This document shows, in pieces, positions 9,312-41,145 of a stretch of 48,134 nucleotides of DNA. The stretch covers positions 1-48,134 of the IMG/VR virus record IMGVR_UViG_3300032271_001005, one strand, 5' to 3'. Below the pieces are notes generated by a model. The model searched no databases and was not told the DNA's origin. It saw only the letters and a program-made list of their open reading frames with translations. Both the position numbers and the translations under genes were made by a program. Every line of letters starts with the position of its first letter. The stretch's first letter is position 1. The stretch comes from a virus.

Positions 9312-10211
9312 TTAAAATTCAACTAATTTACCATTCTTGGATTCAGAAGGAGAATACCAAGTATTATTTTTCCAAACATTGCTAGGATCTTTAGACCAAG
9401 ATTCCACAGGTCCGTAAATACCACAATTAATACTGTAAAGCGTATCAAATTTATTATTCTCAAATAATATTTGAATGTTTGGTTTTTCTGTTCCAGAATT
9501 ACCAAGATACACACAATAGGAGCCACCCCTAACAAGGTTGTACGTTATTTTCCAATTAATATTTGGACCTTGCTCAGGGAACATACTTATCGCTGACGTA
9601 CAATTGTTAGTATGACATCCTAAAACATTATTATATATAGTTACATTTTTTACATTTCCAGAAGAAAGAACTGCTTGAGCATGATTGCTACTAGGATTAA
9701 TAAAATTATCAACATAAGAATTTGTTAATTTCATCCCATCAGTTGCAAAAATACCTCTTTGCGTACCATGAACATAGACATGATCTAATTTCATTTCTGT
9801 GCCGCCCAAAATTGCTGTATCGGGGTGTGAGTTCTTTGCAGCAGTTATTTCTACATAAGACATGTTTAAATTATTAAATTGACTCCATTGTCTAACCGCA
9901 TACCAAGTTGTGGGAGAAATAATTAAAGACCTAGTTATTGTTACATTGCTTGCTTCTACAAGCACCGGGCCGCGAATTTCATATCCATCAATCTTAGTAC
10001 CATTTTTTGTAATAATCATTTGCCCATTAAAAACTTTAAGTTTTTTAATTTTAGGTTTCCACCCAACAGAATTTTTTGTAGGAAATGATGAAGGTTTAGC
10101 AATTAATCTAGCAGGAATTTTTGATAAATTAAAAACAAAAACAAATATTGCTATACATATTAACACAATAAATGCTGAAATAATTTTAATTAATTTTTTA
10201 TTTTTAAACAA
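9312..10211 (-). CDS. Membrane-anchored right-handed beta-helix protein
   Basis: 299 aa. A basic start (MFKNKKLIK) and one hydrophobic helix (about residues 8-28) act as signal anchor. The rest has short repeated strands (VLVEASNVTITRSLI, MKLDHVYVHGTQRGIF, MKLTNSYVDNF, VKNVTIYNNVLG) typical of pectate-lyase-like parallel beta helices. No catalytic set is evident. Such folds often bind or cut polysaccharides at the cell surface; a role in altering host envelope sugars or superinfection is inference. Confidence 0.75.
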   Translation of the reverse strand: MFKNKKLIKIISAFIVLICIAIFVFVFNLSKIPARLIAKPSSFPTKNSVGWKPKIKKLKVFNGQMIITKNGTKIDGYEIRGPVLVEASNVTITRSLIISPTTWYAVRQWSQFNNLNMSYVEITAAKNSHPDTAILGGTEMKLDHVYVHGTQRGIFATDGMKLTNSYVDNFINPSSNHAQAVLSSGNVKNVTIYNNVLGCHTNNCTSAISMFPEQGPNINWKITYNLVRGGSYCVYLGNSGTEKPNIQILFENNKFDTLYSINCGIYGPVESWSKDPSNVWKNNTWYSPSESKNGKLVEF

Positions 10212-10505
10212 TTAAACATTTGCACCACTTTCAATTAAATTTATAAGATCTTTTTTGAGGATAAAAGAATCTTCAATAATTCTAACACTATTAATAAGAT
10301 ACTTAAACTCATTAAGTATTTCATCTGTAGCAAAATTTGGATCGCCATTAGACTTAATATAAAAATTAATAATTCTGTAAATCCTATCAGAAATATTAAC
10401 AGGATCTAGCATCGAAGCCCAATCCTCCAACTTGCCATCATCAACATTACGAATTAACTTAGCAATCTCCCTAGCAACATCAGCAGGGATTTTAATCTCA
10501 TTCAT
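10212..10505 (-). CDS. Hypothetical helical protein, 97 aa
   Basis: Mostly helical, acidic, soluble; no recognised family. It ends one base before the beta-helix gene starts, suggesting joint expression. The N-terminus IPADVAREIAKLIRN resembles small regulatory helices but has no diagnostic motif. Confidence 0.65.
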   Translation of the reverse strand: MNEIKIPADVAREIAKLIRNVDDGKLEDWASMLDPVNISDRIYRIINFYIKSNGDPNFATDEILNEFKYLINSVRIIEDSFILKKDLINLIESGANV

Positions 10506-10520
10506 ATTACATCCAATTCA

Positions 10521-11003
10521 TTATATAGACTTAGCAGCAGCAGCAATCTGCGCTGGAACAACCAAATAAGGATCTTCAAAAGTATCATCTCCAGCAGCCT
10601 GTGCAGACAAAGCAGACACTTGAGAACATACTAATGTTGACAGATTACGCATAATATTGTCAACCCATTTAGGGTCAGCGCCACAGATTAAAAAGATAAA
10701 AGCAATAATATCAACCCAACCATAAGGAGTACCAACTAAAGATTTCGCTTTCTCTACCGCCGCTTTCCTGTCACCCTTAATAGATAAAACTAAATAGTCT
10801 TCTTCAGGATATTGAGATAAATCATCAATAGCAACACCCCAAGGATTCGCTTCTACGATCTTCCCGTCACCAATATAAACTGCAGAATGATTATATTTCC
10901 ACTCACCTTCTTTACGCCAACGAAACCACTGGGCAGTTTGGATCATTCGTGAAAAAAATTGTGTTGTATGTATCGCAAGTATATCGCCGGGTTCAAGGTT
11001 CAT
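10521..11003 (-). CDS. NlpC/P60-superfamily (YiiX-like permuted papain) hydrolase
   Basis: 160 aa opening with LEPGDILAIHT, then NHSAVYIGDGKIVEA (the histidine block), GTPYGW and LVCSQVSAL (the cysteine block). This order, His before Cys, is that of the permuted YiiX/YaeF branch. These enzymes cut peptide or amide bonds in the cell envelope or on lipids. No signal peptide is seen, so export by lysis machinery or action inside is open. It overlaps the HNH gene by 4 bases. Confidence 0.8.
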   Translation of the reverse strand: MNLEPGDILAIHTTQFFSRMIQTAQWFRWRKEGEWKYNHSAVYIGDGKIVEANPWGVAIDDLSQYPEEDYLVLSIKGDRKAAVEKAKSLVGTPYGWVDIIAFIFLICGADPKWVDNIMRNLSTLVCSQVSALSAQAAGDDTFEDPYLVVPAQIAAAAKSI

Positions 11004-11477: not shown

Positions 11478-11510
11478 AAAAAGACAGGAGCCTCCCATAG
11501 GAGGCTCCTG
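11478..11510 (-). terminator. Strong intrinsic terminator after the papain-like gene
   Basis: CAGGAGCCTCC (11485-11495), loop CATA, GGAGGCTCCTG (11500-11510): an 11-bp perfect stem. On the minus strand it is followed by TCTTTTTAATC. It lies 15 bases past the stop of the papain-like protease gene. Confidence 0.9.
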
Positions 11511-11525
11511 CTTATTATTTCTTAT

Positions 11526-12455
11526 TTACAGAGTGTAATTTTTTGAACGTCCCCAAGCAAGAATCGCCTGAGCAACCTTGCGACTCTTACCATATCTTGT
11601 GGATGAAGCCCAAATCTTAACGCAATTCCATAATGCAAGATCATCATCTACAGGAGGAACTGGGGTAGGTGTTGGGGTTGGTGGCACTGGTGCAGGAGGC
11701 ACAGGTGCCGGTGGTACCGGAGTTGGATCTGGTGTAGGTGTTGGAGGAACAGGAGTTGGAGTAGGTGCAGGCTTATTTAAGCCAACAAGAACTGTAGCAT
11801 CTCCCTGCTCTGAAAGCAATCTGCCGAGTGTATTAAATGACATGTACGCACGACCATTATCAACACCCCAAGATGTTCCCCATGAATTCTGCATCCCGAC
11901 CAACTGACGTTCTACATCAATTTCATCAAGAATAAACTCATGCCCACCTGCTACCGAATCACCAGCAGGAATGGTCAAAAGACCATTGGAATCAGGATGG
12001 AACATATTATTATACCAATTTACACCAATCATGACTGGATGCTGTGTTAAAGCAGCAAGCACATCATTTAAAGAGAAGCAATGCGTAAATCCACTGATAA
12101 GGCCACGGTTCTGTAGCACTTTTGCTACAGACAAACCGTCCGACCCGGTATCATCTGGAGGATAACTACCCGGCGCATTATCAATCTTAGTAGCATCCGA
12201 ATAAACGGAAACTGCTACAGATTCATCCAACACCGTTCCCGCAGGAAGAGTACTAAAATAAGGATCTGTGCCGATTAGTCCGACCCCGCTATTCCCGGTA
12301 CAACTGCCAAGATTGCCTTGGTCAAAGCACGGGACTTCTCTCCTCCACCTTGTTGACGTGAGGGTGATACTTGAACCATCAAAAGCATATGCTCTTGAAC
12401 GTGGATCATGGTTTACATTACGACCTAAAGTGTATCGACCTAAATTGTATATCAT
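11526..12455 (-). CDS. Papain-like C1 cysteine protease with Pro/Thr linker
   Basis: 309 aa. The full papain catalytic set is visible: Q46 and C52 in DQGNLGSC, H172 in GGHEF and N190 in NSWGTSWG, with the papain spacing Q-5-C. Residues about 230-262 are a PTPxP linker of the type found in actinobacterial wall proteins, and a roughly 40-residue C-terminal domain (LALWNCVKIWASSTRYGK) follows, perhaps a binding module. No signal peptide is seen. A strong terminator follows. Role could be cleavage of host surface proteins or virion maturation; inference. Confidence 0.85.
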   Translation of the reverse strand: MIYNLGRYTLGRNVNHDPRSRAYAFDGSSITLTSTRWRREVPCFDQGNLGSCTGNSGVGLIGTDPYFSTLPAGTVLDESVAVSVYSDATKIDNAPGSYPPDDTGSDGLSVAKVLQNRGLISGFTHCFSLNDVLAALTQHPVMIGVNWYNNMFHPDSNGLLTIPAGDSVAGGHEFILDEIDVERQLVGMQNSWGTSWGVDNGRAYMSFNTLGRLLSEQGDATVLVGLNKPAPTPTPVPPTPTPDPTPVPPAPVPPAPVPPTPTPTPVPPVDDDLALWNCVKIWASSTRYGKSRKVAQAILAWGRSKNYTL

Positions 12456-12568: not shown

Positions 12569-13462
12569 TCAGAAACCTGCCTGCTTCAATGCATCTGCAA
12601 GGGAAGTTTTGAAACCAGAGGTGGTGTATGTTGCACCTGAGATAGTAGCAATGTTTGAACTTTGTGCCGCTAGAGCCTCGAAAATCATAGTCGGATTTGC
12701 GGGGTCACTATTCATCGCTGCCAAAGTAGCAACATTATATTTACCAATATTCTTAGAAGTACTGTCGGTTGCACCAAAAACTGGTACGGTGATAGCAGTA
12801 ATCTTACCGCCAGAAATTGTTGCTGCAACCTGAATTGGGTAAGTTAGACCCTGATCTGCAACATTAACAGTAGCGGCTACACCAGTAAATGTACCATCCT
12901 TTACCGTACCGCCAGTAGCAGTTGGGCTAGGGGTAGGTGTTGGTGTTGGTGTAACGGTACCAGTTGGAGTTGGTGTGGGGGTGGCTGTGCTAGAAGGAAT
13001 TACAGGAGTTCCTGTAACCTTAGCATTATTTGTCTGGTCCTTGAGAACCTTGGTGGAACAAGTGTACGTCCATGTCTCGCCTACATTAAGAAGCGGATCT
13101 GAATCATTTCCGCTGACATAAGTTACTGGACTGCACTTGTCATCTTCAACGACAATATTTTTGAAATCAATAGTACCTGTATTTGCTACCTTGTAAGTAT
13201 AGGTAACTGTACTACCGGGAACTACTACATTCTTATTGCTAGTTGTTGTGAGAGACATCTGGGCATTACGGGCGTAAACGGTTGCGTTTGCATTTGCCGT
13301 AACTGTTAGACTATCTAGATTTGCTGAATCAACCGGAATTGGAAGAGAAAAATCTGCCATAGCATTTGATGACCAACCAATTACTCCAATACCAGCAACT
13401 GCGCTTAGCGCAAAAACGGCTTTCTTCTTATTATTTGTTCTTACCTTTTTAACACGACTCAT
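12569..13462 (-). CDS. Secreted FMN-binding (flavinylated) protein with DUF11-type repeat
   Basis: 297 aa. A Sec signal peptide (KKK, hydrophobic AVFALSAVAGIGVIGW, cleavage after NAMA near residue 36) is followed by a DUF11/DUF7507-like beta domain (about 70-150), a PTPTP linker (about 158-185) and a C-terminal FMN_bind domain (about 186-297). The last has DGTFTGVA, TISGGKITAI and the flavinylation motif SGATYT, in which T278 is the expected site for covalent FMN attached by host ApbE. FMN_bind proteins shuttle electrons outside the membrane, and actinobacteria pair them with ferric-reductase-like proteins such as the one at 15224-16531. No ApbE gene is present in the window. Confidence 0.9.
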   Translation of the reverse strand: MSRVKKVRTNNKKKAVFALSAVAGIGVIGWSSNAMADFSLPIPVDSANLDSLTVTANANATVYARNAQMSLTTTSNKNVVVPGSTVTYTYKVANTGTIDFKNIVVEDDKCSPVTYVSGNDSDPLLNVGETWTYTCSTKVLKDQTNNAKVTGTPVIPSSTATPTPTPTGTVTPTPTPTPSPTATGGTVKDGTFTGVAATVNVADQGLTYPIQVAATISGGKITAITVPVFGATDSTSKNIGKYNVATLAAMNSDPANPTMIFEALAAQSSNIATISGATYTTSGFKTSLADALKQAGF

Positions 13463-13586
13463 GAGTGTTTATATTCTCCTATTTTCTGGGGCTTAGTTTT
13501 ATTTCATACCCCAATCATATTTTAACACGAATGGGTTATTTAATTTTATAAGAACTGGTTAATTTTAGTCACTTTAGTCACACAAG

Positions 13587-13659
13587 TCCCACCGGCTGGA
13601 ATCGAACCAGCGACATCGAAATTAGAAGTTTCGCGTTCTATCCCCTGAACTACGGTGAG
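13587..13659 (-). tRNA. tRNA-Arg (anticodon UCU)
   Basis: The minus strand folds into a complete cloverleaf. The acceptor arm is CTCACCG/CGGTGGG with one T-G pair, the D-stem GTTC/GAAC, the anticodon stem CGAAA/TTTCG with loop CTTCTAA, and the T-arm GCTGG-TTCGATT-CCAGC. CCA is not encoded. Its 5' end overlaps the last 10 bases of the upstream coding sequence. It would decode AGA, useful for AT-rich phage genes. Confidence 0.95.
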
Positions 13660-13814
13660 TAACCATGACGCAAAAGCATCATGGCGTAGCGCATTCCATT
13701 GAAAAACCAACGGGACTCTTCATCAGCGGGCTTGTCTGAAGAAATACATTCTTCTATCTCAAGAGCAAACTTATTACGATAATACTCTTCAAAGTCCCGC
13801 TGAAGATCGTCCAT
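13650..13814 (-). CDS. Small protein whose end overlaps tRNA-Arg, 54 aa
   Basis: The start at ATG 13814 follows AGGGACTGAC, directly after the upstream gene. Acidic N-terminus, then SRWFFNGMRYAMMLLRHGYSP. The stop TAG (13650-13652) lies inside the tRNA-Arg acceptor and D region, so processing of the tRNA would cut the 3' end of this message. No family recognised. Confidence 0.65.
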   Translation of the reverse strand: MDDLQRDFEEYYRNKFALEIEECISSDKPADEESRWFFNGMRYAMMLLRHGYSP

Positions 13815-13815
13815 G

Positions 13816-14055
13816 TCAGTCCCTGTACTTCCCAACCTTGATACGTTCTGGGGTGGAATCATATTCTTCATCATCTTCCTGCTCTAACTGGAATTGACGA
13901 ATCTCATTCTGTATAGACTTAAACTGCTTCATAACAGTAGTGTAACGATCATAAAGCATTATTGGAATTTCAATGGTTTCATCAGTGGCAAAAATTCTTG
14001 GTGCCAAAGTATAAACCGGGTACAAAGATTCCTCGTTAACAACTACCTGAATCAT
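13816..14055 (-). CDS. Small hypothetical protein, 79 aa
   Basis: Beta-like N-terminal half (IQVVVNEESLYPVYTLAPRIF) followed by a charged helix. No recognised family. It ends 1-2 bases before the next start. Confidence 0.65.
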   Translation of the reverse strand: MIQVVVNEESLYPVYTLAPRIFATDETIEIPIMLYDRYTTVMKQFKSIQNEIRQFQLEQEDDEEYDSTPERIKVGKYRD

Positions 14056-14070
14056 TCGGAAATCTCCCGA

Positions 14071-14238
14071 TTAGTTTTCATTATTATCTCCATAATTTGT
14101 AGTTGATCCTACTTTTGCAAGATCATTCTCGTTTAGAATTTCTTGAATTCCCCCTACGAGACTAGATGTATAAAGTCTACCATCTTTCCATGTATCTAGT
14201 AAAGCCTGAATTCTCTGAAATTGATCTAATTCAGGCAT
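14071..14238 (-). CDS. Small hypothetical protein, 55 aa
   Basis: The start at ATG 14238 (MPELDQF) is chosen because it overlaps the upstream stop by 8 bases; longer forms lack a normal start codon. Helical start, Asn-rich end. Function is unknown. Confidence 0.6.
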   Translation of the reverse strand: MPELDQFQRIQALLDTWKDGRLYTSSLVGGIQEILNENDLAKVGSTTNYGDNNEN

Positions 14239-14446
14239 CTGGACTCTCAGCAATCATCATAACGCCTCTCAAAAATGCTTCCGGCATATTAGCCGCAAGA
14301 ATCCCGACTGACTTACGGGTATCTTCATTCATAGCATCTACGGGAACGGTAACACGCATAGTAATACCAGTATTTGCATCAGTACAATGAACAAATAACT
14401 CGTTCCCCTGATGGTCCACAGTTGCTTCAGTAAGAATACTAGCCAT
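14231..14446 (-). CDS. Small hypothetical protein, 71 aa
   Basis: A compact alpha/beta-looking sequence with THE CTDANTGITMRVTVPVDAM centre, typical of phage proteins with unknown function. It overlaps the 26-aa frame upstream by 8 bases. Confidence 0.65.
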   Translation of the reverse strand: MASILTEATVDHQGNELFVHCTDANTGITMRVTVPVDAMNEDTRKSVGILAANMPEAFLRGVMMIAESPDA

Positions 14447-14519
14447 TATCTAAATCCTCAATATTAGAAGTTAACCATTCAAACCATTCATCAAGAGTCA
14501 TCACACGCTCGTTAGACAT
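14439..14519 (-). CDS. Putative micro-protein, 26 aa
   Basis: The frame from ATG 14519 to TAG 14439 overlaps both neighbouring genes by 8 bases and gives an acidic, Trp-containing helix (LDEWFEWLTSNIEDL). The overlaps match the operon's style, but so short a frame could be chance. Confidence 0.45.
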   Translation of the reverse strand: MSNERVMTLDEWFEWLTSNIEDLDNG

Positions 14520-14739
14520 TCTTACCCTCCCTATTGTTAGCATTAATCTTAATCATTTCTATATAATGTATAAGACCCTTACCAAGACTGTTAAATACTA
14601 GATCCAGAGCATAGTAAACATCCTCTGGGTGCCCCTTCTCGTCAAGTCCCGGACTAACATTAGTGTCCTGATAGACTCGCGCTGCCAACTCCAACAATTC
14701 AGTTGGAGTAATATGCATATCTTTATACTCGATGTTCAT
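14512..14739 (-). CDS. Small hypothetical protein, 75 aa
   Basis: Helical protein (TPTELLELAARVYQD, DVYYALDLVFNSLGKGL). No family recognised. It overlaps the pyrimidine-dimer glycosylase gene upstream by 17 bases and is probably translated with it. Confidence 0.65.
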   Translation of the reverse strand: MNIEYKDMHITPTELLELAARVYQDTNVSPGLDEKGHPEDVYYALDLVFNSLGKGLIHYIEMIKINANNREGKNV

Positions 14740-15214
14740 AATTTTCCTTTACATGTGTAGGCCAATAATAATTACAACTATCACAACAAACAAAATCGGC
14801 ACCAATAGATGCTTCATACTCATACTGAGGATACAATTCTGGGGCTTTATTGTAAAGACTTCTACGATGAGTAGTTACAACACTATGAAGAGTTGCCCGA
14901 TCAACAAACCAAGGAGGGTTACTATAACCATCTTCACGATCAAAGTAGTCCCGCAACCTTACAATTTCATTCCAGTTATTCTCATACTTGTAGCCGCGAG
15001 CATCCATCTCTTTGGCAATACAGTAAAGATAACCATAAAGAGCAAGTTCATGGCCCTCAAACATTTTAGTAGCAGGGTGCAAACGCCAGCCCTTAGTCTG
15101 TCCAGCAAGGGCAGCAAGAATCTGACGACCCTCAAGCAACTGCTTAACCAAACGCTTATTATCTAGTGCCTTGGCAGAATCCTCAAACGTGTACTCTGAC
15201 ATAAAAACTTGCAT
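14723..15214 (-). CDS. Pyrimidine-dimer DNA glycosylase family protein
   Basis: 163 aa with the opening MQVF...DSAKALDNKRLVKQLLEGRQIL and a GWRLHPATKMFEGHELALYGY segment that match the bacterial/actinophage members of Pfam Pyr_excise. The C-terminus adds FVCCDSCNYYW, a possible zinc site. Family members excise UV-induced pyrimidine dimers like T4 DenV, so this could protect phage DNA in sunlit water. The distance from DenV itself is large, so activity is inferred. Confidence 0.75.
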   Translation of the reverse strand: MQVFMSEYTFEDSAKALDNKRLVKQLLEGRQILAALAGQTKGWRLHPATKMFEGHELALYGYLYCIAKEMDARGYKYENNWNEIVRLRDYFDREDGYSNPPWFVDRATLHSVVTTHRRSLYNKAPELYPQYEYEASIGADFVCCDSCNYYWPTHVKENYEHRV

Positions 15215-15223
15215 GTGTTCTCC

Positions 15224-16531
15224 TTAGAACGAAAACGATTCGTGGTATATCCTATTATCCATGACACCCGCATTTAGCGCAAGGGTAATTACGTCATCCA
15301 TAAAACTTTCTGAACCGCACACAAACACATCCCTAAAAGAAATGTCTGGAATGTACTGACGAATATTTTCTGCCGTCATCGGATGCTCTGATCTATTACC
15401 AATTAAATAGTATAAAGTCCATCCTTCTCTCAAGAAAAGTGCATCCAATTCATCACCAAAGATTATGTCATCGAATGTGGGTACCCTATAAATTAAAGTA
15501 ACTTCTGCTCTATGAGGAAGTTCTTCAAGGACGGCTAGAATCGGAGTTATTCCAACTCCTGCCGCAAATGCCGCAATTAAATTAGTTTCACGTCTACGTG
15601 AAGTAAAAACCCCATACGGACCTTCTGCAAAAATTTTAGTTCCCGGCTTCAGCCTTCTAGCAAGATCATGGCTATGGTCACCAAGAATCTTAACAGTAAT
15701 TCTTAAATCACCACTCAAGGGTGAGCAGGACAAGGAATAGGGGTGTGACTGCCACCACCACTCTCTTGTGAGAAAACGCCATTGGAAAAACTGACCCCCT
15801 CTGGCATCAATGTCTCCTAGACGATCACCTGTTATGTAAACACTATACACATCATTAGTTTCTTTCACAACTCTTTTTATCTCTAACTTGTGACGCCTAG
15901 AAAAAATAAATGGTTGCACAAATCTGTTAGCAATAATGGCTAGAAAAACAAGTACATAAAAAATTATCCAACATGCTCTAATAAAATAATGTTTTATAAA
16001 AATACTTCCATTGTCTAATTGGTGTCCAAATGCTAGGACAACTGCTACATAAAAGAAAAGGTGAAGAGTCCACCATATTTCATAACGCATCCTACTTCTG
16101 ATAAATCTATAACTCATTATGCCAAGAATCATCATCATAGCAAGGGCCACAATTGCTTCCGGCATCCACGGATAATCAGTAAAAAACATTTGTGTCTGTG
16201 ACCAAAAAGTCTGTCTAATTGGTTTAGCATAACCTAGAGTAGTAAAAATAACATGAGCAAAAATTAGAATAAGGGCATAGGGAGCAATCTTCCTATGCCA
16301 CAAAATCATTTTGTCATGTCCAATTTCTCTCTCCAAGAAGGGAGATCGGGAAGAAAGAATAAGCATCAACAGGCATAAATATGTTCCCGTCATTGCAAAA
16401 ATAGTACCCCAAGAAGTTAAACTTCTCAGGGACGCTTCTACAACAAAAAGAGAACTACCAACAACAAGTCCAAAACCCAGACCCGACAGTCCAATAGCAA
16501 AACTTGCTATATCAATTCTTTGCTTCAACAT
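15224..16531 (-). CDS. Ferric-reductase-like transmembrane flavocytochrome
   Basis: 435 aa. Six membrane helices fill residues 8-205. The heme ligand pairs H79/H93 and H157/H170 sit on two helices with 13-residue spacing. A ferredoxin-reductase-type flavin domain follows with HPYSLS (263-268), GPYGVF (304-309) and GVGITP (325-330). The NAD(P)H domain has FVCGSES (403-409) and ends in an aromatic F435. All key residues are present, so the protein should take electrons from cytosolic NAD(P)H through FAD and two hemes across the membrane. The acceptor may be the secreted FMN-binding protein at 12569-13462, as in actinobacterial extracytosolic flavin systems. Direct iron reduction or oxygen reduction are alternatives. 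Confidence 0.92.
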   Translation of the reverse strand: MLKQRIDIASFAIGLSGLGFGLVVGSSLFVVEASLRSLTSWGTIFAMTGTYLCLLMLILSSRSPFLEREIGHDKMILWHRKIAPYALILIFAHVIFTTLGYAKPIRQTFWSQTQMFFTDYPWMPEAIVALAMMMILGIMSYRFIRSRMRYEIWWTLHLFFYVAVVLAFGHQLDNGSIFIKHYFIRACWIIFYVLVFLAIIANRFVQPFIFSRRHKLEIKRVVKETNDVYSVYITGDRLGDIDARGGQFFQWRFLTREWWWQSHPYSLSCSPLSGDLRITVKILGDHSHDLARRLKPGTKIFAEGPYGVFTSRRRETNLIAAFAAGVGITPILAVLEELPHRAEVTLIYRVPTFDDIIFGDELDALFLREGWTLYYLIGNRSEHPMTAENIRQYIPDISFRDVFVCGSESFMDDVITLALNAGVMDNRIYHESFSF

Positions 16532-17197: not shown

Positions 17198-17707
17198 CTA
17201 GATCGATAAATAATTAAACGGTGATCTTACATTGGTAGAAAAAGTTTCGGCTGCTTTAAGTGCCTGCTCGATCCTGCTTAAAGGTTCCCCGGTTGTTGAA
17301 TACAAGGAACCCAAGGCATACGGACTGCCTGAACCAATAGCATGATAATTTGTCATATCCTGACCTACCTGCCAATCACTTTCTACATAAAAAATATTAC
17401 CATCATAACCAATAATAATGGAAGAGTCTTTTTCCTCATATCCATTATTTTCTAAAACTCTCCTAAGTTCAGGAACAAACTTAGTAATCATATATTTCAA
17501 TAAATCTTTTTCTTGAACTTGAGGCGGTTTAAAATGATATTCAATTATTTGACCATATCTAAAACTATTACAATAACCAATTAAAAACTTACCATTTTTA
17601 AATATTTTTGAAGCAACCCTTAAAGATATAGAATCTCCTTCTACTGCGGCGGAATCAGCCCCCATATAAATAGTTCCCTGATCTTCTAAAGCCACAATAC
17701 AAGTCAT
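17198..17707 (-). CDS. Proteasome-beta/HslV-like Ntn hydrolase
   Basis: 169 aa. After removal of the initiator Met, the protein begins with Thr1, and Asp17 (GADSAA) and Lys33 (ASKIF) fall at exactly the positions of the proteasome beta/HslV catalytic set, followed by GSG at 124-126. The length is close to HslV (about 175). No ATPase partner (HslU, Mpa) is visible in the window. The product could form a ring that uses a host unfoldase or degrades peptides alone. Self-processing of a propeptide is not needed, as the nucleophile is already second in the sequence. Biological target unknown. Confidence 0.85.
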   Translation of the reverse strand: MTCIVALEDQGTIYMGADSAAVEGDSISLRVASKIFKNGKFLIGYCNSFRYGQIIEYHFKPPQVQEKDLLKYMITKFVPELRRVLENNGYEEKDSSIIIGYDGNIFYVESDWQVGQDMTNYHAIGSGSPYALGSLYSTTGEPLSRIEQALKAAETFSTNVRSPFNYLSI

Positions 17708-20017: not shown

Positions 20018-20467
20018 TTAAGCGACAGTGCTTTTTAAAGTAACACCCAACTGCCAATTCCAAAACTGATGCTTATCAATACGCTCAGCAATAAAATTAG
20101 CAATACCCTGTTCATCAGCAGCATCAGCAATCTTAAAAAGAACCTTCAACTGATCAACAATCTTAGAATTAGTAATCATTAACTCACCAATCATCTCAAC
20201 AGCACTCAAATTAGGATCTTCATTAATCGTAATCGTTGCAGTCTCACTCCACGTTTTCAAACCAAACGGAGCATCTGCACCAAGTTTACGAAGATTCTCA
20301 GAATAAGCATCAATAGAATCAAAAACATCTTCATAAATCTCTAGGAAAAAGGCATGAAATTGCTTAAACAACATACCCTTAACATTCCAATGATAACCAT
20401 GAGATTGTGCATACATGGCTACCACATTCGCTTGAGCATACCTCAAACCTTCTATTAAATCAGACAT
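20018..20467 (-). CDS. Dps-like iron-storage and DNA-protection protein
   Basis: 149 aa with the Dps ferroxidase residues H26, H38, D53 and E57 in the same spacing as characterised Dps (H-12-H-15-D-4-E), in HWNVKG, FHAFF and DAYSENL. Dps forms 12-mers that oxidise Fe(II) with hydrogen peroxide and store the mineral, sometimes coating DNA. A phage copy could protect DNA or hold iron for virion or host use. Start at ATG 20467 is supported by AAGGATTT upstream; a hairpin lies upstream. Confidence 0.9.
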   Translation of the reverse strand: MSDLIEGLRYAQANVVAMYAQSHGYHWNVKGMLFKQFHAFFLEIYEDVFDSIDAYSENLRKLGADAPFGLKTWSETATITINEDPNLSAVEMIGELMITNSKIVDQLKVLFKIADAADEQGIANFIAERIDKHQFWNWQLGVTLKSTVA

Positions 20468-33961: not shown

Positions 33962-34630
33962 TTACCAATCCTTTATGGTTAAATTCGGATTACCGAAAGG
34001 CGTCGTAAAAATTTCTTCTTGAGGTTTACCGCCCCATTTTTTAATAAAATATTTTTCATTTTTTTGAAATTGTTCGGGCGGAACAACAAAATTATTTGGA
34101 TCAGCATTTTGAGTAGCAGAGTTATGATGAAAAATTTTTGCACCAGTATCAATTTTAATTTTAAGACCAGCCAATTTGATACGATATCTCATATCATTAT
34201 CCTCAAAATAAGCGGGTGTAAAATTTTCATCAAAATACCCACATTTAAGAATTAATTTATTTATATTAACCGCATAGCAAGAAAAAACTGATAGAAAAAA
34301 ATCTTCTGGACGAATTTCTTCAATCAAACCACACTCTTCTCTGTCTAAATGCTGGTCTGCTCCAACAATAACATTTTCATCTTTTATAATTTCATTATGC
34401 AATCTTTTAATTGTTCCCGGTTTAAATACTACATCATCATTAGATATGATCGCATAATTAAAACCATCCCTTTTGGCTTTCACCATACCCAAATTCCAAG
34501 ACTTCGATACACCACGATTATTAATATAATTATCAATAACATATGGTCTAATATCATAATCTACAGAATTTATATTGTGAGTAAATAGATCAAACCTTTT
34601 TAAAACAGGAACAATTAAAGGAATTGTCAT
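33962..34630 (-). CDS. GT-A (family 2-like) glycosyltransferase
   Basis: 222 aa from ATG 34630, coupled to the upstream stop (TAATG). The chain has YAIISNDDVVFKPGTI with the DD metal motif, a GWFDENFTPAYFEDNDMRYR-like acidic block (here YFDENFTPAYFEDND) and AKIFHHNSAT. This is the nucleotide-sugar GT-A layout. Part of the leftward sugar cassette 33962-40984. Donor and acceptor unknown. Confidence 0.8.
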   Translation of the reverse strand: MTIPLIVPVLKRFDLFTHNINSVDYDIRPYVIDNYINNRGVSKSWNLGMVKAKRDGFNYAIISNDDVVFKPGTIKRLHNEIIKDENVIVGADQHLDREECGLIEEIRPEDFFLSVFSCYAVNINKLILKCGYFDENFTPAYFEDNDMRYRIKLAGLKIKIDTGAKIFHHNSATQNADPNNFVVPPEQFQKNEKYFIKKWGGKPQEEIFTTPFGNPNLTIKDW

Positions 34631-35226
34631 TAAAAATTTTCTCCAAGGGCTTCTGGTATGCTTACATAAGAATATTTTTGACACATTTTTTCATAAATTA
34701 TTCCATCACTTGCAGGCTCTTTGTTATACCAATAACCTTCTCTTCCCCAAATTCCTCTATGAGCAACCAATTGCATAGCATCAATATTATTGGCAATTGG
34801 AGGAAGTCCAGTAAAAATAAAATTAAAACTCCCCGGAAAATGTTTATGATGAATAATAGAAAATATTATTATTTTAGAATCTGCTTCTTCTATTTCTTCA
34901 TTTATTTTTTCTAAACAATTTGGGTACAAAATATTATCTATATTAAATTGAAAAAAATATTCGCCTTTTGCTTTTTTCATTGCCATGTCTCTACTAGAAT
35001 GACCCCAATCATTCATTCTTACTGGAGTATTCATAAAAACAGGTTTATTTTTAAATTGACTAAAATCAAATTCTTCTGAGTATGGTACTTCCTTTGGTCC
35101 ATCATGACAGATAATTAATTCAAAATCTTTAAAAGTTTGATTAACTAAAGATTTAAGACCATTCACCATGCCGTTTCTTGGAACATGTTTTTCATAATCA
35201 ACTGCTATAATTGAAAATTTTGGCAT
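34630..35226 (-). CDS. Glycosyltransferase family 2-like protein, short
   Basis: 198 aa starting PKFSIIAVDY, with LVNQTFKDFELIICHDG, MKKAKGEYFFQFNIDNILYPN. The catalytic DXD is degenerate (NIDN). The domain is shorter than usual (about 200 against 230+), so it may be a minimal or altered GT-A enzyme. Part of the sugar cassette. Confidence 0.75.
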   Translation of the reverse strand: MPKFSIIAVDYEKHVPRNGMVNGLKSLVNQTFKDFELIICHDGPKEVPYSEEFDFSQFKNKPVFMNTPVRMNDWGHSSRDMAMKKAKGEYFFQFNIDNILYPNCLEKINEEIEEADSKIIIFSIIHHKHFPGSFNFIFTGLPPIANNIDAMQLVAHRGIWGREGYWYNKEPASDGIIYEKMCQKYSYVSIPEALGENF

Positions 35227-36091
35227 TTACCTTATCCTTAATAATATTAAATACACTATCGTCGTCATATAAATTATACCAAGATGTATCTGCCTCTATA
35301 CCATCTATACCATTCCAAAAAGTGTTTCCTTCTCCAATAACAAAAGCAATAATTGTTTTATTCTTATCTAGAAAATTATTTTTTGTCATAGAAAAAGTTC
35401 CCGGTCCAGAAGAATTTGTAATAATAACATTACAATGTTCAGAAATTTTTCCGATTTCTGGAAGATCACAAATAATTTTTTCTCTATTAGTTAAATTATT
35501 TGTAAAAAATACATTGGGCATATTTGTTTCAAAAACATTTGTACATATAAAATTTACATTTTCAAAATCATTCGCTAACCTTTGAATAGCAGATTCCCAT
35601 TTTCCATTATGAGATTGACCAGATATTGGAATATCATTGCAAATTAATACATTAAACCCCTGCGGAATTTTAACTTCAGACAATAATTCTACATCTATTT
35701 GAGATACATAGTCAAGCGGATTTTCTGATATCTGTACATTAATAAGACCATCTGATGAAACAAGAACCTTTAAAGATATATCTTCCCACATCTCTTTTTG
35801 AGCAGAAAAATTATGAGAAGTCATAGTTATATAATGACCAATCCATGTATTAATATACATAGTATTGGTTGATTGATCAAAATAGGTCGCTGGATTAGCA
35901 ATTAAATGTGGATAATTATAAATACTTTCAGTATTAATTGGTAAATTTACTGCCCGTCCCGGAACTATTGTTGCATAACATAAAGAAATATCATTTTTAT
36001 TAAATTCATCAATAAATTGACGAACATATTCTTTATTACTATGCAAATCTCCAAAATGCCATGTGTTAAAAAATACAACATTTTTAATCAT
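35198..36091 (-). CDS. Putative GT-B-like sugar-transferase fold, 297 aa
   Basis: Starts IKNVVFFNTWHFGDLHSNK, like heptosyltransferase-type GT-B N-termini (FGDL loop), and later has CNVIITNSSGPGTFSM, a donor-site-like strand-loop. No family is firmly recognised. Its place between glycosyltransferase and methyltransferase genes, with 29-base and 1-base overlaps, ties it to the sugar cassette. Confidence 0.55.
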   Translation of the reverse strand: MIKNVVFFNTWHFGDLHSNKEYVRQFIDEFNKNDISLCYATIVPGRAVNLPINTESIYNYPHLIANPATYFDQSTNTMYINTWIGHYITMTSHNFSAQKEMWEDISLKVLVSSDGLINVQISENPLDYVSQIDVELLSEVKIPQGFNVLICNDIPISGQSHNGKWESAIQRLANDFENVNFICTNVFETNMPNVFFTNNLTNREKIICDLPEIGKISEHCNVIITNSSGPGTFSMTKNNFLDKNKTIIAFVIGEGNTFWNGIDGIEADTSWYNLYDDDSVFNIIKDKVNAKIFNYSS

Positions 36092-37305
36092 TATTGTGAA
36101 ATAACCTCAAATTTAGGACATGGAACAATAAATTTACCACCATTTTTTAAATAATCTTGCTCGCGCTGAACAAATTCATTAATAAAATGCCAAGGTAACA
36201 CAAGAAGGTAATCCGGGTTTGCCACACGCATATCTTCTTCAGAACAAATTGGAATTTCTGTACCAACAGTTTTTAAACCAAACTTATACGGACTTCTTTC
36301 TGCAATACAATCAATAAGGCTGGAGTCAAGACCAAAGTACTGCAACAAAGTATTTCCCTTAGTTGATGCTCCATATCCCCAAATTTTCTTCCCCTTGGCT
36401 TTTTCTGAAACAATAAAATCATAAGTTTGTTGTTTAAGTTGCTGTAAATTCTCATAAAATGGAATCCAAATTTCAGGTGTATTGTAACCATGTTCTTTTT
36501 CATATGAAATCAGAGAATCAACCCTAGCCTTGCAAACATCTCTATATGGCTGTGTGCCGAACTTCTTGACATTACCCTTTTCCTTCATTGCATAAACCCT
36601 AAAAGAACCACCATTAATATCATTTAATTGAACATCAACAATTGCAAAGCCTGCTTCAGAAAAAATCTTACTTATTGAACCAAGGGAATGGTAATACAAA
36701 TGCTCATGGCAAATATTATCAAAAGCCATCTGATTAATCATTAATGGAGTGTAACTCATCTGAACCACAAGAAGGCCATCATCATCCATCACTGTATCTA
36801 AATCTTTTAGAAAACCAACAGGATTTTCTAAATCATAAAACATAGCAATAATGGTTACAACTTTTGCCTTTTCAGAAACTTTTTCAGAATAAGAGTTTGC
36901 ACTAAAATAATCCTGAACAATAACGTCAGCATGTTGTGAAGACTCAGCAACAAAGGAGTCATCTACTGGATCTACCCCGACCCTAAAACAAGTTTTAGGC
37001 ACAAACTTTAGTAAGGTGCCATCGTTACATGCGATATCTAACCACACATCATTTTCTGATAACTTATAAACAGAAGTTATAGAATTAACAATATTTTCAA
37101 GTTCATTAGTCATAGTCACATTCGTGCCAGAACGATACCAATATTTCCCATACATAAATTCAGGCGGAGTAATTTCTTCTAGACGTGGTGCGCCCTTATC
37201 TTCATCCCAAACCATCTTCATCTCTACCCTACCGCCGCGAGGCTCTTCATTATCTGCAATAAAATCAGATACATACAAATCACCCAGTGTAAACAATTCT
37301 TTCAT
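36091..37305 (-). CDS. Sugar C-methyltransferase (NovU/TylCIII-like)
   Basis: 404 aa. The SAM domain has VWLDIACNDGTLL (motif I) and VQMSYTPLM, then CHEHLYYHSL, the catalytic His block of the family. The C-terminal domain has WGYGASTKGNTLLQYFG and PDYLLVLPWHF. The N-terminal zinc-ribbon cysteines usual in this family are absent (LGDLYVSDFIADNEEPRGG), so that site is degenerate. It should C-methylate a keto-sugar nucleotide; with GMD in the same cassette the substrate may be GDP-4-keto-6-deoxymannose, an inference. Confidence 0.85.
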   Translation of the reverse strand: MKELFTLGDLYVSDFIADNEEPRGGRVEMKMVWDEDKGAPRLEEITPPEFMYGKYWYRSGTNVTMTNELENIVNSITSVYKLSENDVWLDIACNDGTLLKFVPKTCFRVGVDPVDDSFVAESSQHADVIVQDYFSANSYSEKVSEKAKVVTIIAMFYDLENPVGFLKDLDTVMDDDGLLVVQMSYTPLMINQMAFDNICHEHLYYHSLGSISKIFSEAGFAIVDVQLNDINGGSFRVYAMKEKGNVKKFGTQPYRDVCKARVDSLISYEKEHGYNTPEIWIPFYENLQQLKQQTYDFIVSEKAKGKKIWGYGASTKGNTLLQYFGLDSSLIDCIAERSPYKFGLKTVGTEIPICSEEDMRVANPDYLLVLPWHFINEFVQREQDYLKNGGKFIVPCPKFEVISQ

Positions 37306-38225
37306 TTTACTATTTCCTCCAAAATATTGAAAAACTTATTCTTTAAATTTGTGCTACTCCACTCTTCTCTAAAATAATTAGAAGGGGCAGAACCAAAACT
37401 CATTATACTTTCAATTGAATTTTCATTAGCATTTAACTCTGGAAACTTTTCTAAAACATGCCTAAACATTGATGAATTACTTACACCGAAAGGTTTTCCC
37501 GATGCTGCTGCATAATCAATTGCTGAAGATAAACCACGATTATCTTCATATGCATACAAAAAAAGATTTACATCATTGTTTCCCAAAAAATCAATTAGAT
37601 CTTTGTCTGGGATAAAATGATTTGTAATGTTTAATTGAATGTTTGGCTTTGTTATTGAATTTTTGCATTGATCAGAAATTTTTTGAGTCATTACGCCCAA
37701 CCTGTCACCAAAAAATGCTGCGGTAATATGTAAATTAATTATTGCTTCATCATATTCCTCACATACTTTAACACAAATTTTTTCAAAACCTTTATTTTCA
37801 AAGCCAAAACCAAAACTACCCACCGTTAAGATTTCATTATTTTTTATTTCAGGTAAGGGAAAATCAAATAATGGTCTTTGCAATCCATATATTCTTGCTA
37901 CTTTATTTTCGCTCATATCAGTCATAATAATAGCATTACTATTCAAATGATAAGGGATATTATCTTCATGATGAAGTATTAACTGTTTTGCTTTTACTTG
38001 ATAAGATATTTTTGGGGTAAACCACGAAAGCGTAGCATTATGCCAATTATAAACAATTACATCAGGATTAAATTCTGAAACATTCTTAAAAAATGTTTCT
38101 TGATCATCTGCCTCAATGTATTTTGAAATATAACGATTATCGGTTAAAAGTATATCTGCCATTCTCTTACCATATTGATATACTCCACAACGCTGTTGTG
38201 AATGATTTACTAATAATACTTTCAT
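37302..38225 (-). CDS. GT-B glycosyltransferase-like protein
   Basis: 307 aa. GVYQYGKRMADIL near the start, ILTVGSFGFGFENKGFEKI beginning the second domain, and NLFLYAYEDNRGLSSAIDYAAASGKPFGVS in the donor region: the GT4-like layout with a conserved E near DNRG. Overlaps neighbours by 4 bases. Donor unknown. Confidence 0.78.
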   Translation of the reverse strand: MKVLLVNHSQQRCGVYQYGKRMADILLTDNRYISKYIEADDQETFFKNVSEFNPDVIVYNWHNATLSWFTPKISYQVKAKQLILHHEDNIPYHLNSNAIIMTDMSENKVARIYGLQRPLFDFPLPEIKNNEILTVGSFGFGFENKGFEKICVKVCEEYDEAIINLHITAAFFGDRLGVMTQKISDQCKNSITKPNIQLNITNHFIPDKDLIDFLGNNDVNLFLYAYEDNRGLSSAIDYAAASGKPFGVSNSSMFRHVLEKFPELNANENSIESIMSFGSAPSNYFREEWSSTNLKNKFFNILEEIVK

Positions 38226-38485
38226 GACCTACCATACATTTTTGTTGAGCCTTGATTATACAATTTTTGCAAACTCCCATTTTTAACCATGTCATTAATT
38301 AATTCATCAATTTCTTGAATTAAATCATTTCTTTGAGAATTACATATATTTGTAAGTCTTGTAGCATCTGCTATTTTTTTATCAGAAGAATCAGGATTAC
38401 GCTTGATGTCTTCCGCCATCCAAATTCTAATATTTACTATAGATAATTTATCTATTAAACTTCCTACTGTATCCATTATATTCAC
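38222..38485 (-). CDS. DUF4254-like small protein of sugar clusters
   Basis: 87 aa. VGSLIDKLSIVNIRIWMAEDIKR, RLTNICNSQRNDLIQEIDELI closely follows the DUF4254 pattern (DLIDRL..N.KIW, QR.DL..E.D.L). Such proteins lie beside glycosyltransferase genes in many bacteria; their job is unknown. Overlaps the GT gene by 4 bases. Confidence 0.7.
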   Translation of the reverse strand: MNIMDTVGSLIDKLSIVNIRIWMAEDIKRNPDSSDKKIADATRLTNICNSQRNDLIQEIDELINDMVKNGSLQKLYNQGSTKMYGRS

Positions 38486-38495
38486 CGCATAATCT

Positions 38496-39083
38496 CTATA
38501 AATTAATTTTTTCTAAAATACTTTCGTGGACAAACCAATCTTCATATGGTTGCATATACCATGCAGGGTTTTGATCTAAAACTGGAGCATCTTCAACAAC
38601 ACGCACATAACCATTTTTACTTAATACCTCAAAATTATTATTTTTATTTGTTGGACCCCAACAATATAAATTATGTTCAACTGTCATAATACCAATGCGC
38701 CATTTATTAAAATCGATAGCATGAAGAACAGAATATTCCATACCTTCAATGTCAATTGAAAGATAATCAATATACTCTGGAGCGCCTGCTTCTTCAAGAA
38801 TTGTATTCAATTTCATTGCCGGAACTGCTGTATTCTCAAATACACCATCATAATCAGTAGCATATGCCCAAAAATTTGACGAATTTCTTACTTTAACTAA
38901 AGCATTAAATTGTGATGCATCACACTCTACACATATACCTTTCCAATTTCTTTCTTTTTCAAAGAAATATGTGTTACTTGTATCAACACCATTATAAGCA
39001 CCAATTTCAACATAATAACCATTTGTCTTAGATCTAAGAATCTTATCAACCCAAGCATCTTGACCAGATTGAGAATAAAACAT
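38496..39083 (-). CDS. FkbM-family methyltransferase
   Basis: 195 aa from ATG 39083 with AAGGGGATT upstream; the longer frame would overlap the dehydratase. FYSQSGQDAWVDKIL, GYYVEIGAYNGVDTSNT (SAM motif), CVECDASQFNALV and YLSIDIEGMEYSVL match the FkbM O-methyltransferase family. It probably methylates a sugar hydroxyl. Confidence 0.87.
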   Translation of the reverse strand: MFYSQSGQDAWVDKILRSKTNGYYVEIGAYNGVDTSNTYFFEKERNWKGICVECDASQFNALVKVRNSSNFWAYATDYDGVFENTAVPAMKLNTILEEAGAPEYIDYLSIDIEGMEYSVLHAIDFNKWRIGIMTVEHNLYCWGPTNKNNNFEVLSKNGYVRVVEDAPVLDQNPAWYMQPYEDWFVHESILEKINL

Positions 39084-39087
39084 TGTA

Positions 39088-40095
39088 TCAATCCCCTTTG
39101 CTTTCAAAAAGACACATGTCCTGAACCAAATCTTCAAAAGAATAATGCGGTGACCAAGATAGTTCTTTTTTAGCAAACGAAGGATCTGCAGTCAAGGTAT
39201 TTACCTCTGCTGGACGAAAGAAATCTGGAGAAACGCGAATAATAGTTCGACCAGTATTCCTGTCTATACCAATTTCATCGATACCGCTTCCCTCCCAAAC
39301 AATATCCATACCAAAATATTTTCCAACTTCTTCCACAAATTCTCTAATTGAATGTGATTCTCCTGTACCAATAACATAATCATTTGGTGTATGATGCTGT
39401 AAAATCATCCACATCGCACGAACAAAATCTTTTGCATGACCCCAATCACGGAGAGGGTCTAGATTTCCAAGAAGCAGAATTTCTTGTCTGCCCATATAAA
39501 TGTTATATATACCATTGACAATTTTTTTTGTTACAAAATCAATACCCCGACGTGGTGACTCATGATTAAATAAAATACCACTACAAGCAAACATTCCATA
39601 TGATTCACGATAATTTTTTGTAATCCAATGACCATAAATTTTAGCCACTCCATATGGAGATCTAGGATAAAAAGGCGTAGATTCAGACTGAATATTTTCT
39701 TGAACAAAACCAAACATTTCCGAAGTACTTGCTTGATAAAACTTTGCTTCAATGCCAAGAATTCTTATCGACTCAAGTATCCTGCCCGGTCCCAAAGCAT
39801 TAATATCTGCTGTGTGTTCTGGCTTCTCAAAAGAAACTTTAACTTGACTCTGACCAGCCAAATTATAAATTTCATCTGGTTCAACATTTTTAATTATATT
39901 AAACAAACTTAAACTATCGCTTAAATCTCCAGTATGCAATTTTATATCATCAATAATACTATTTATTCTATAATTATTTTCTGTTGAGGATCTGCGCTTT
40001 AACCCATGAACTTCATAACCCTTTTCAAGAAGCAACTCCGCTAAATACGAACCATCTTGACCTGTTATTCCAGTTATTAATGCTTTTTTTGACAT
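39088..40095 (-). CDS. gmd: GDP-mannose 4,6-dehydratase
   Basis: 335 aa. GITGQDGSYLAELLLEKGYEV (NADP-binding start), ASTSEMFG, YPRSPYGVAKIYGHW (YxxxK) and FNHESPRRGIDFVTKKI are diagnostic for GMD of the extended SDR family, and length is usual. It converts GDP-mannose to GDP-4-keto-6-deoxymannose. No GDP-fucose synthase or reductase is seen nearby, so the keto sugar may be C-methylated, or finished by host enzymes. Confidence 0.95.
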   Translation of the reverse strand: MSKKALITGITGQDGSYLAELLLEKGYEVHGLKRRSSTENNYRINSIIDDIKLHTGDLSDSLSLFNIIKNVEPDEIYNLAGQSQVKVSFEKPEHTADINALGPGRILESIRILGIEAKFYQASTSEMFGFVQENIQSESTPFYPRSPYGVAKIYGHWITKNYRESYGMFACSGILFNHESPRRGIDFVTKKIVNGIYNIYMGRQEILLLGNLDPLRDWGHAKDFVRAMWMILQHHTPNDYVIGTGESHSIREFVEEVGKYFGMDIVWEGSGIDEIGIDRNTGRTIIRVSPDFFRPAEVNTLTADPSFAKKELSWSPHYSFEDLVQDMCLFESKGD

Positions 40096-40108
40096 TAAAA
40101 ATCCATTC

Positions 40109-40984
40109 TTAATAACTTATATTATACTTTTCTAGCAAATGCTCTTTTCCAGCATATCTATCAATTATAGCGTTTCTAACAATATCTGTAAATGAAACCA
40201 AATCATGGCATTCTGATCTTTTCATTGGTTCTTTTTCAAATCGATACCAAGTATCTTTCATCCACTCAACATGCCTACTACCCGGTCTATCCAAATAACC
40301 TTTATTTTGCTTAATTTCAAATTCTTCTCTGGATTTTACTCCATAATGGTGTAATTTAATTTTTTCAAATCCGGGGTCATAGTTATTAAAACTTTGATTT
40401 AAAGGAAAAAATCTTTCATTAACAGGAACAAAGCCGTTATTAATTATTACAGAATGAGTTGTACCATTATTACAAACGGCTACCTCTGGCCTAAAAATAG
40501 TTTTTATATGATGAAGGGTGTCTTCAAACGTGGCTGTATAATTTTCTATTGCTAAACCTTTAGGCTTTTTTATATGATTACTAGAACTAAATTGTTCCCA
40601 TTCTACACCAAGTGCGCCAACATGATCATAATTACTTAAAAAAATTGGTAAAGATTCACCATTAGTTGTAAATAAAAATTCATCAGTCGCATGATAGAAC
40701 AACCATTTCGTTTTGCCTGCCTGTTCTTGAATACAATAATCCATAACCCAAAAACATTTAGTTGGCAGACCCATTTTAGGCGCTGGCTCTAAAACTTCTG
40801 GAAATTCTCTAATCTCTAAAATATTATCAACAATATAAGGATCTAATGCTTCATAAATACCATCTGTTGAACCATCATTATAAAGAATAAAATGGTCAAC
40901 ACCTTGCAAAAGATGGAACTCTAACCATTCTGGAATATACGGAGTTTCATCTTTTACCCACATAACAGAAGTTAAATTATACAT
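40109..40984 (-). CDS. GT92-like glycosyltransferase
   Basis: 291 aa (ATG 40984; GTG 40999 possible). VMWVKDETPYIPEWLEFHLLQGVDHFILYNDGSTDG and WLFYHATDEFLF match the family 92 / DUF23 fold with its DE metal pair; HHYGVKSREEF follows. Begins the sugar cassette on the minus strand. Acceptor unknown. Confidence 0.82.
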   Translation of the reverse strand: MYNLTSVMWVKDETPYIPEWLEFHLLQGVDHFILYNDGSTDGIYEALDPYIVDNILEIREFPEVLEPAPKMGLPTKCFWVMDYCIQEQAGKTKWLFYHATDEFLFTTNGESLPIFLSNYDHVGALGVEWEQFSSSNHIKKPKGLAIENYTATFEDTLHHIKTIFRPEVAVCNNGTTHSVIINNGFVPVNERFFPLNQSFNNYDPGFEKIKLHHYGVKSREEFEIKQNKGYLDRPGSRHVEWMKDTWYRFEKEPMKRSECHDLVSFTDIVRNAIIDRYAGKEHLLEKYNISY

Positions 40985-40998
40985 TTTAAACAAACTCA

Positions 40999-41145
40999 CT
41001 ATCTTTTTTTAATAAGGCCCGTTTTTTCTAGGGCACGCTGAATAGTCATATGACTACATTTGGCTTCATTAGCCATTTCAACAATATTCTTTTTTTCTAC
41101 AACATATCGCTTATACAACCATTGTTTCGACTCATATAATTTCAT
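40999..41145 (-). CDS. Small helix-turn-helix protein, 48 aa
   Basis: Start at ATG 41145 with ACGAGGT upstream; a longer frame overlaps RuvC-like gene. LYKRYVVEKKNIVEMANEAKCSHMTIQRALEKTGL has an HTH form (helix, turn, recognition helix CSHMTIQRAL). Possible local regulator between recombination genes and the sugar cassette. Confidence 0.7.
   Translation of the reverse strand: MKLYESKQWLYKRYVVEKKNIVEMANEAKCSHMTIQRALEKTGLIKKR

Follow-up and report, generated by a model that had tools for sequence, protein, structure and literature searches.

Can a bacteriophage encode a route by which electrons leave the cell that it infects? The question is raised by two genes on a contig of 48,134 nucleotides (IMG/VR record IMGVR_UViG_3300032271_001005, analysed over its full length and referred to here as the window), one of which encodes a predicted membrane flavocytochrome, while the other encodes a predicted secreted protein with an FMN_bind domain. 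An earlier note, made from the letters alone, regarded the two as an extracytosolic flavin electron-transfer pair and judged that no phage system of this kind had been described. Searches of open-access papers concerning phages together with ferric reductases, FMN-binding domains or extracellular electron transfer returned no title or abstract on such a system, which agrees with that judgement as far as titles and abstracts reach. To our knowledge, a pair of this type is known in bacteria and new in viruses.

The two proteins and their genomic setting

The contig is that of a phage, as had been claimed, because it encodes the large terminase subunit TerL, a tail protein with fibronectin domains, a DnaE-type polymerase, UvsX/RecA and a WhiB protein; it also contains genes for a PD-(D/E)XK nuclease and an M15 peptidase, as well as three tRNAs. 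The WhiB gene, which we take to be a sign of an actinobacterial host, suggests the host at the level of phylum or order. Several other genes, all on the minus strand, are found elsewhere in the window. These encode a secreted-looking protein of unassigned family with repeats resembling a beta-helix (9312-10211), which only one sibling record contains out of three that were checked, a protein with weak similarity to proteasome beta-subunits (Ntn-hydrolases; 17198-17707), which is kept in many related phages, and a sugar-modification cluster comprising GDP-mannose dehydratase, C-methyltransferase, FkbM methyltransferase and glycosyltransferases (34630-40999). A Dps/ferritin-like protein (20018-20467) was considered as part of an iron module, an assignment weakened by its presence in sibling phages that do not carry the flavin pair.

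The flavocytochrome (15224-16531, minus strand, 435 aa) matches the Pfam families Ferric_reduct (2.3e-19), NAD_binding_1 (1.2e-6) and FAD_binding_8 (1.7e-5), in each case above the curated cut-off. Hydropathy indicates six transmembrane stretches, at residues of about 13-31, 42-60, 82-100, 122-144, 152-170 and 183-201, and the haem ligands are arranged as H79-x13-H93 and H157-x12-H170. These four residues are invariant in all 58 aligned homologues, a set obtained with an ORF filter that itself required the histidine spacing, and they are the only ones among the histidine positions checked across the 58 that never vary; the two loci left out by the filter were aligned separately and keep all four. 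Conservation across the homologues is also high for the HPYS motif (FAD), the GxGxTP motif (nucleotide) and the E-x-F at the C-terminus.

The predicted structure of the flavocytochrome has a pLDDT of 61, a medium confidence, and most of its reductase half scores higher. In the PDB the top match, by sequence profile (E 3e-10) as well as by Foldseek (TM 0.63/0.67), is SpNOX of Streptococcus pneumoniae (8qt6), and the eukaryotic DUOX1, NOX2 and NOX5 also match; Foldseek against viral models returned no match at E 0.001. The model fits an SpNOX-like fold, with which the reduction of a flavin and that of O2 would both be compatible. The phage protein could accordingly be viewed as a NOX-type oxidase that transfers electrons to O2 and forms superoxide outside the cell, in the manner of SpNOX, with the FMN_bind protein being unrelated. 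The ranking of the PDB matches is in line with such an activity and so is the haem spacing, although x13 and x12 are typical of the whole superfamily. On the other hand, SpNOX is distant, at 18% identity, and in all of the nearest cellular relatives of the phage protein an FMN_bind gene comes immediately downstream, pointing to a flavin acceptor; a NOX-type oxidase is therefore regarded as improbable.

The second protein (12569-13462, minus strand, 297 aa) is predicted to be secreted or membrane-anchored and matches FMN_bind (6.1e-7) and DUF7507/DUF11, again above the curated cut-offs. Its N-terminus, read directly, consists of a basic stretch, a hydrophobic stretch and AMA-D, and this predicted signal sequence is followed by a DUF11/DUF7507 domain with two conserved cysteines (C110 and C135), a Pro/Thr linker and the C-terminal FMN_bind domain, which ends in ATISGATYT, with T278 as the predicted flavin acceptor. 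Within the canonical D-x-x-[ST]-G-A-[ST], the SGAT portion is present and the usual Asp at -6 is replaced by Ala. Among the 69 rows examined, 20 have Ala and 19 have Asp at this position, and cellular FMN_bind members encoded beside ApbE can also be devoid of the Asp. The Asp-to-Ala exchange in the ApbE motif has been reviewed as having only minor effects (PMC12052999). The PDB relatives of the protein are 8p2a and 3o6u, while its AlphaFold model (pLDDT 39) was kept out of the analysis.

Both ORFs are open at these ends and lie on the same strand, separated by 1761 bp that hold about six small ORFs and one tRNA, tRNA-Arg(TCT) (13586-13659, minus strand; ARAGORN), which lies outside the module. 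A pyrimidine-dimer DNA glycosylase gene (14723-15214, minus strand; PF03013, 1.8e-21) is located directly downstream of the flavocytochrome and is kept beside it in sibling phages, and we judge it to be a constant neighbour outside the electron path. Directly downstream of the FMN_bind gene, in a position that is also kept in sibling phages, a gene at 11526-12455 (minus strand) encodes a protein with a Pro/Thr-rich linker that gave no Pfam match and that we read as papain-like. It is followed by a strong bidirectional terminator-like hairpin of 11-12 pairs (11484-11511), possibly the end of the transcript holding the FMN_bind gene; promoter matches in the window did not differ from the shuffled expectation.

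The picture drawn in the earlier note is thus recovered here. Its coordinates, strand and spacing of about 1.8 kb are correct, and Pfam agrees with hydropathy and alignment on a six-helix flavocytochrome with four haem histidines and motifs for FAD and NAD(P)H, and with the motif on a predicted secreted protein that has a signal peptide and an FMN_bind domain, the latter bearing SGATYT and T278. The HMM searches proposed for both proteins gave matches that pass the Pfam cut-offs, and ApbE, said to be missing from the window, is absent from the sibling records as well.

Distribution, composition and selection in related phages

The co-occurrence of the two genes, which had been suggested as a check, was followed in 46 related IMG/VR records, nearly all of which were reached via the terminase and some of which are fragments. 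Ferric_reduct is present in four of the 46 records, and the FMN_bind domain in three of these four and in no other; in the fourth record the contig stops short of the domain, and the DUF11 part is present, at 78% identity. Records with either gene consequently have both (4 of 4), and the remaining 42 have neither. The 11 kb contig L096 has the flavocytochrome and stops before the position of the FMN_bind gene. Gene order is kept across the carriers, with a gap of 1.8 kb in the window that widens to about 4 kb, and at most about 4.4 kb, in siblings. Beyond the window, three flavocytochrome scans of 2.9 million viral contigs returned the same four contigs and no others, so that the trait is narrow. 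In INPHARED phages the FMN_bind protein has no homologue and the flavocytochrome only FAD/NAD-domain look-alikes, and neither protein is represented in PHROGs.

The bacterial descent of the genes raises the possibility of host contamination or of a chimeric assembly in which a phage contig was fused with bacterial genes. The independent sibling contigs rule out a chimera, since they have the same synteny and their flavocytochromes have diverged to 68-80% identity. In addition, both genes have a phage-like GC3 of 0.28-0.34 (phage GC, 0.37), well below the total GC of the cellular loci examined (0.47-0.74), and contamination is hardly credible.

The restriction of the genes to a narrow phage clade would also be expected of recently captured passengers that drift without function. 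However, pairwise dN/dS values span 0.07-0.17 for the flavocytochrome. For the FMN_bind protein, five of six comparisons give 0.12-0.19, and the sixth, between two near-identical copies (dS 0.06, dN/dS 0.56), involves too few changes to carry weight. The divergence covered is deep, with a dS of about 1 or higher in many of the comparisons. The frames are intact in every copy that is not cut by a contig end, and the composition is adapted to the phage. Both genes are under purifying selection, and drifting passengers are very improbable.

An unrelated phage contig of 63 kb and 58% GC (L156) encodes a further DUF11-linker-FMN_bind protein (9989-10843), which is 45% identical to that of the window and is flanked by a major-tail-like gene on one side and the tail chaperone/tape measure on the other; no flavocytochrome was found on this contig. 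The protein may be fed by a flavocytochrome of the host or may have another role, and its occurrence, the chief ground for doubt about the pair, indicates that the coupling is not obligatory in phages.

Its position among tail genes invites the view that the FMN_bind protein of the window also acts alone, linked to the surface or the virion by its adhesion-like DUF11 domain and Pro/Thr stalk and either using host donors or having a non-redox function, with the flavocytochrome as separate cargo. The distance of the FMN_bind gene from the flavocytochrome, together with its position next to the gene of another Pro/Thr-linker protein, would suit such a role, whereas the perfect co-occurrence in the window's own clade and the presence of both parts in host genomes speak for a joint function. 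A stand-alone role is accordingly considered unlikely, albeit with an appreciable residual probability.

Cellular relatives and origin of the genes

The phage flavocytochromes form one clade in the tree (100/100), and the enclosing clade (99/98; 22 rows, starred in the tree) holds cellular flavocytochromes from one actinobacterial order, that of the MAG WB6_1B_277, which shows their actinobacterial descent. The best identity between phage and cellular flavocytochromes is about 50-52%. Thirty cellular loci were fetched in this order, and 27 of them, with at least 600 bp downstream, were readable. An FMN_bind gene, often followed by ApbE, is located directly downstream of the flavocytochrome in every one of the 27 (24 identified by script, plus L110, L118 and L109, the last taken as L195 and called on a start near-identical to that of the L107 protein). 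The pairing that the earlier note had ascribed to Actinobacteria is therefore found throughout the readable relatives in one order, and it has also been published (PMC8238504).

The cellular proteins nearest to the phage FMN_bind protein are of a longer type with the DUF11-linker-FMN_bind layout, and their genes do not adjoin that of a flavocytochrome. A first scan of genome contigs with one protein as the query gave no match; full-length proteins of this type are present in two genomes of the same order, both of which also carry flavocytochromes. Tandem gene pairs of this type on bacterial chromosomes (L190:989-3495 and L191:5534-7863), likewise away from flavocytochromes, are a possible source of the phage gene. 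Because the closest FMN_bind type lies apart from the flavocytochromes, the phage pair was apparently assembled from components of two different cellular loci.

A terminase 56% identical to that of the window was observed in one MAG of the flavocytochrome-bearing order (G084:C3:19034-20737), and this likeness lends weak further support to a host link with that order.

Proposed electron path and comparison with known systems

The reading that we favour, and to which we assign a fair probability, is that the pair is a form, carried by phages, of the MsrQ-like extracytosolic flavin electron transfer of actinobacteria, with the FMN loaded by host ApbE. Host NAD(P)H would donate electrons to the FAD of the membrane flavocytochrome, and two bis-histidine haems would conduct them through the membrane to its outer side, where the phage-encoded secreted FMN_bind protein would receive them. 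The Pro/Thr linker and DUF11 domain may allow the flavin head to sit in the cell wall, and FMN would be attached to T278 by the ApbE of the host, which would be needed because the phages do not encode this enzyme. The flavin could then reduce an acceptor outside the cell. We tentatively place Fe(III), converted to soluble Fe(II), first among the candidates, at well below an even chance, and rank an overflow of electrons during infection next. The coupling of the flavocytochrome and the FMN_bind protein is probable and not proven, since the closest cellular FMN_bind type is non-adjacent and L156 has no flavocytochrome.

The auxiliary metabolic genes known from phages mostly function within the cell. 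Whether actinobacteriophages build their own outward electron line, borrowing host ApbE and bringing the surface redox of the infected cell under phage control, is in our estimation an evenly balanced proposition. If it is true, phages would also reprogram redox chemistry on the outside of their host, which could affect both the supply of iron and the balance of NAD(P)H in infected cells. The two genes share with auxiliary metabolic genes a bacterial-type character, a location in a real phage genome, retention in relatives and maintenance by selection.

SpNOX and the eukaryotic NOX and DUOX enzymes resemble the phage flavocytochrome in combining six helices, two bis-histidine haems and an FAD and NAD(P)H domain in one chain. 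These enzymes reduce O2 directly and have no FMN_bind partner. The cellular proteins of G061 and G063 (L191 and L190) have the same three-part layout as the phage FMN_bind protein, with 51% identity in the DUF11 part and 54% in the FMN_bind part, but they are encoded as a chromosomal tandem pair.

The MsrQ-like flavinylation systems of Actinobacteria, described from the annotation of five genes on each side of every key gene, typically occur with apbE and FMN_bind, carry electrons from NAD(P)H through FAD and two haems to a secreted FMN_bind protein and, in certain clusters, are associated with VIT1, a ferrous transporter (Meheust et al. 2021, eLife, PMC8238504). The phage pair has in common with them the PF01794 six-helix cytochrome with its haem histidines, the C-terminal NAD(P)H-binding reductase domain and the extracytosolic FMN_bind protein. 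It differs in being phage-borne, in the absence of apbE, which is typical of the MsrQ-like clusters and not obligatory, in a partner that is non-adjacent and of the DUF11-linker type, and in that the phage genes form a clade of their own. Extracellular electron transfer in Listeria (Ndh2/PplA/FmnB, PMC9973259) similarly directs electrons from NADH to a secreted protein that receives its flavin from an ApbE-like enzyme, although it uses another membrane electron carrier and is not borne by a phage.
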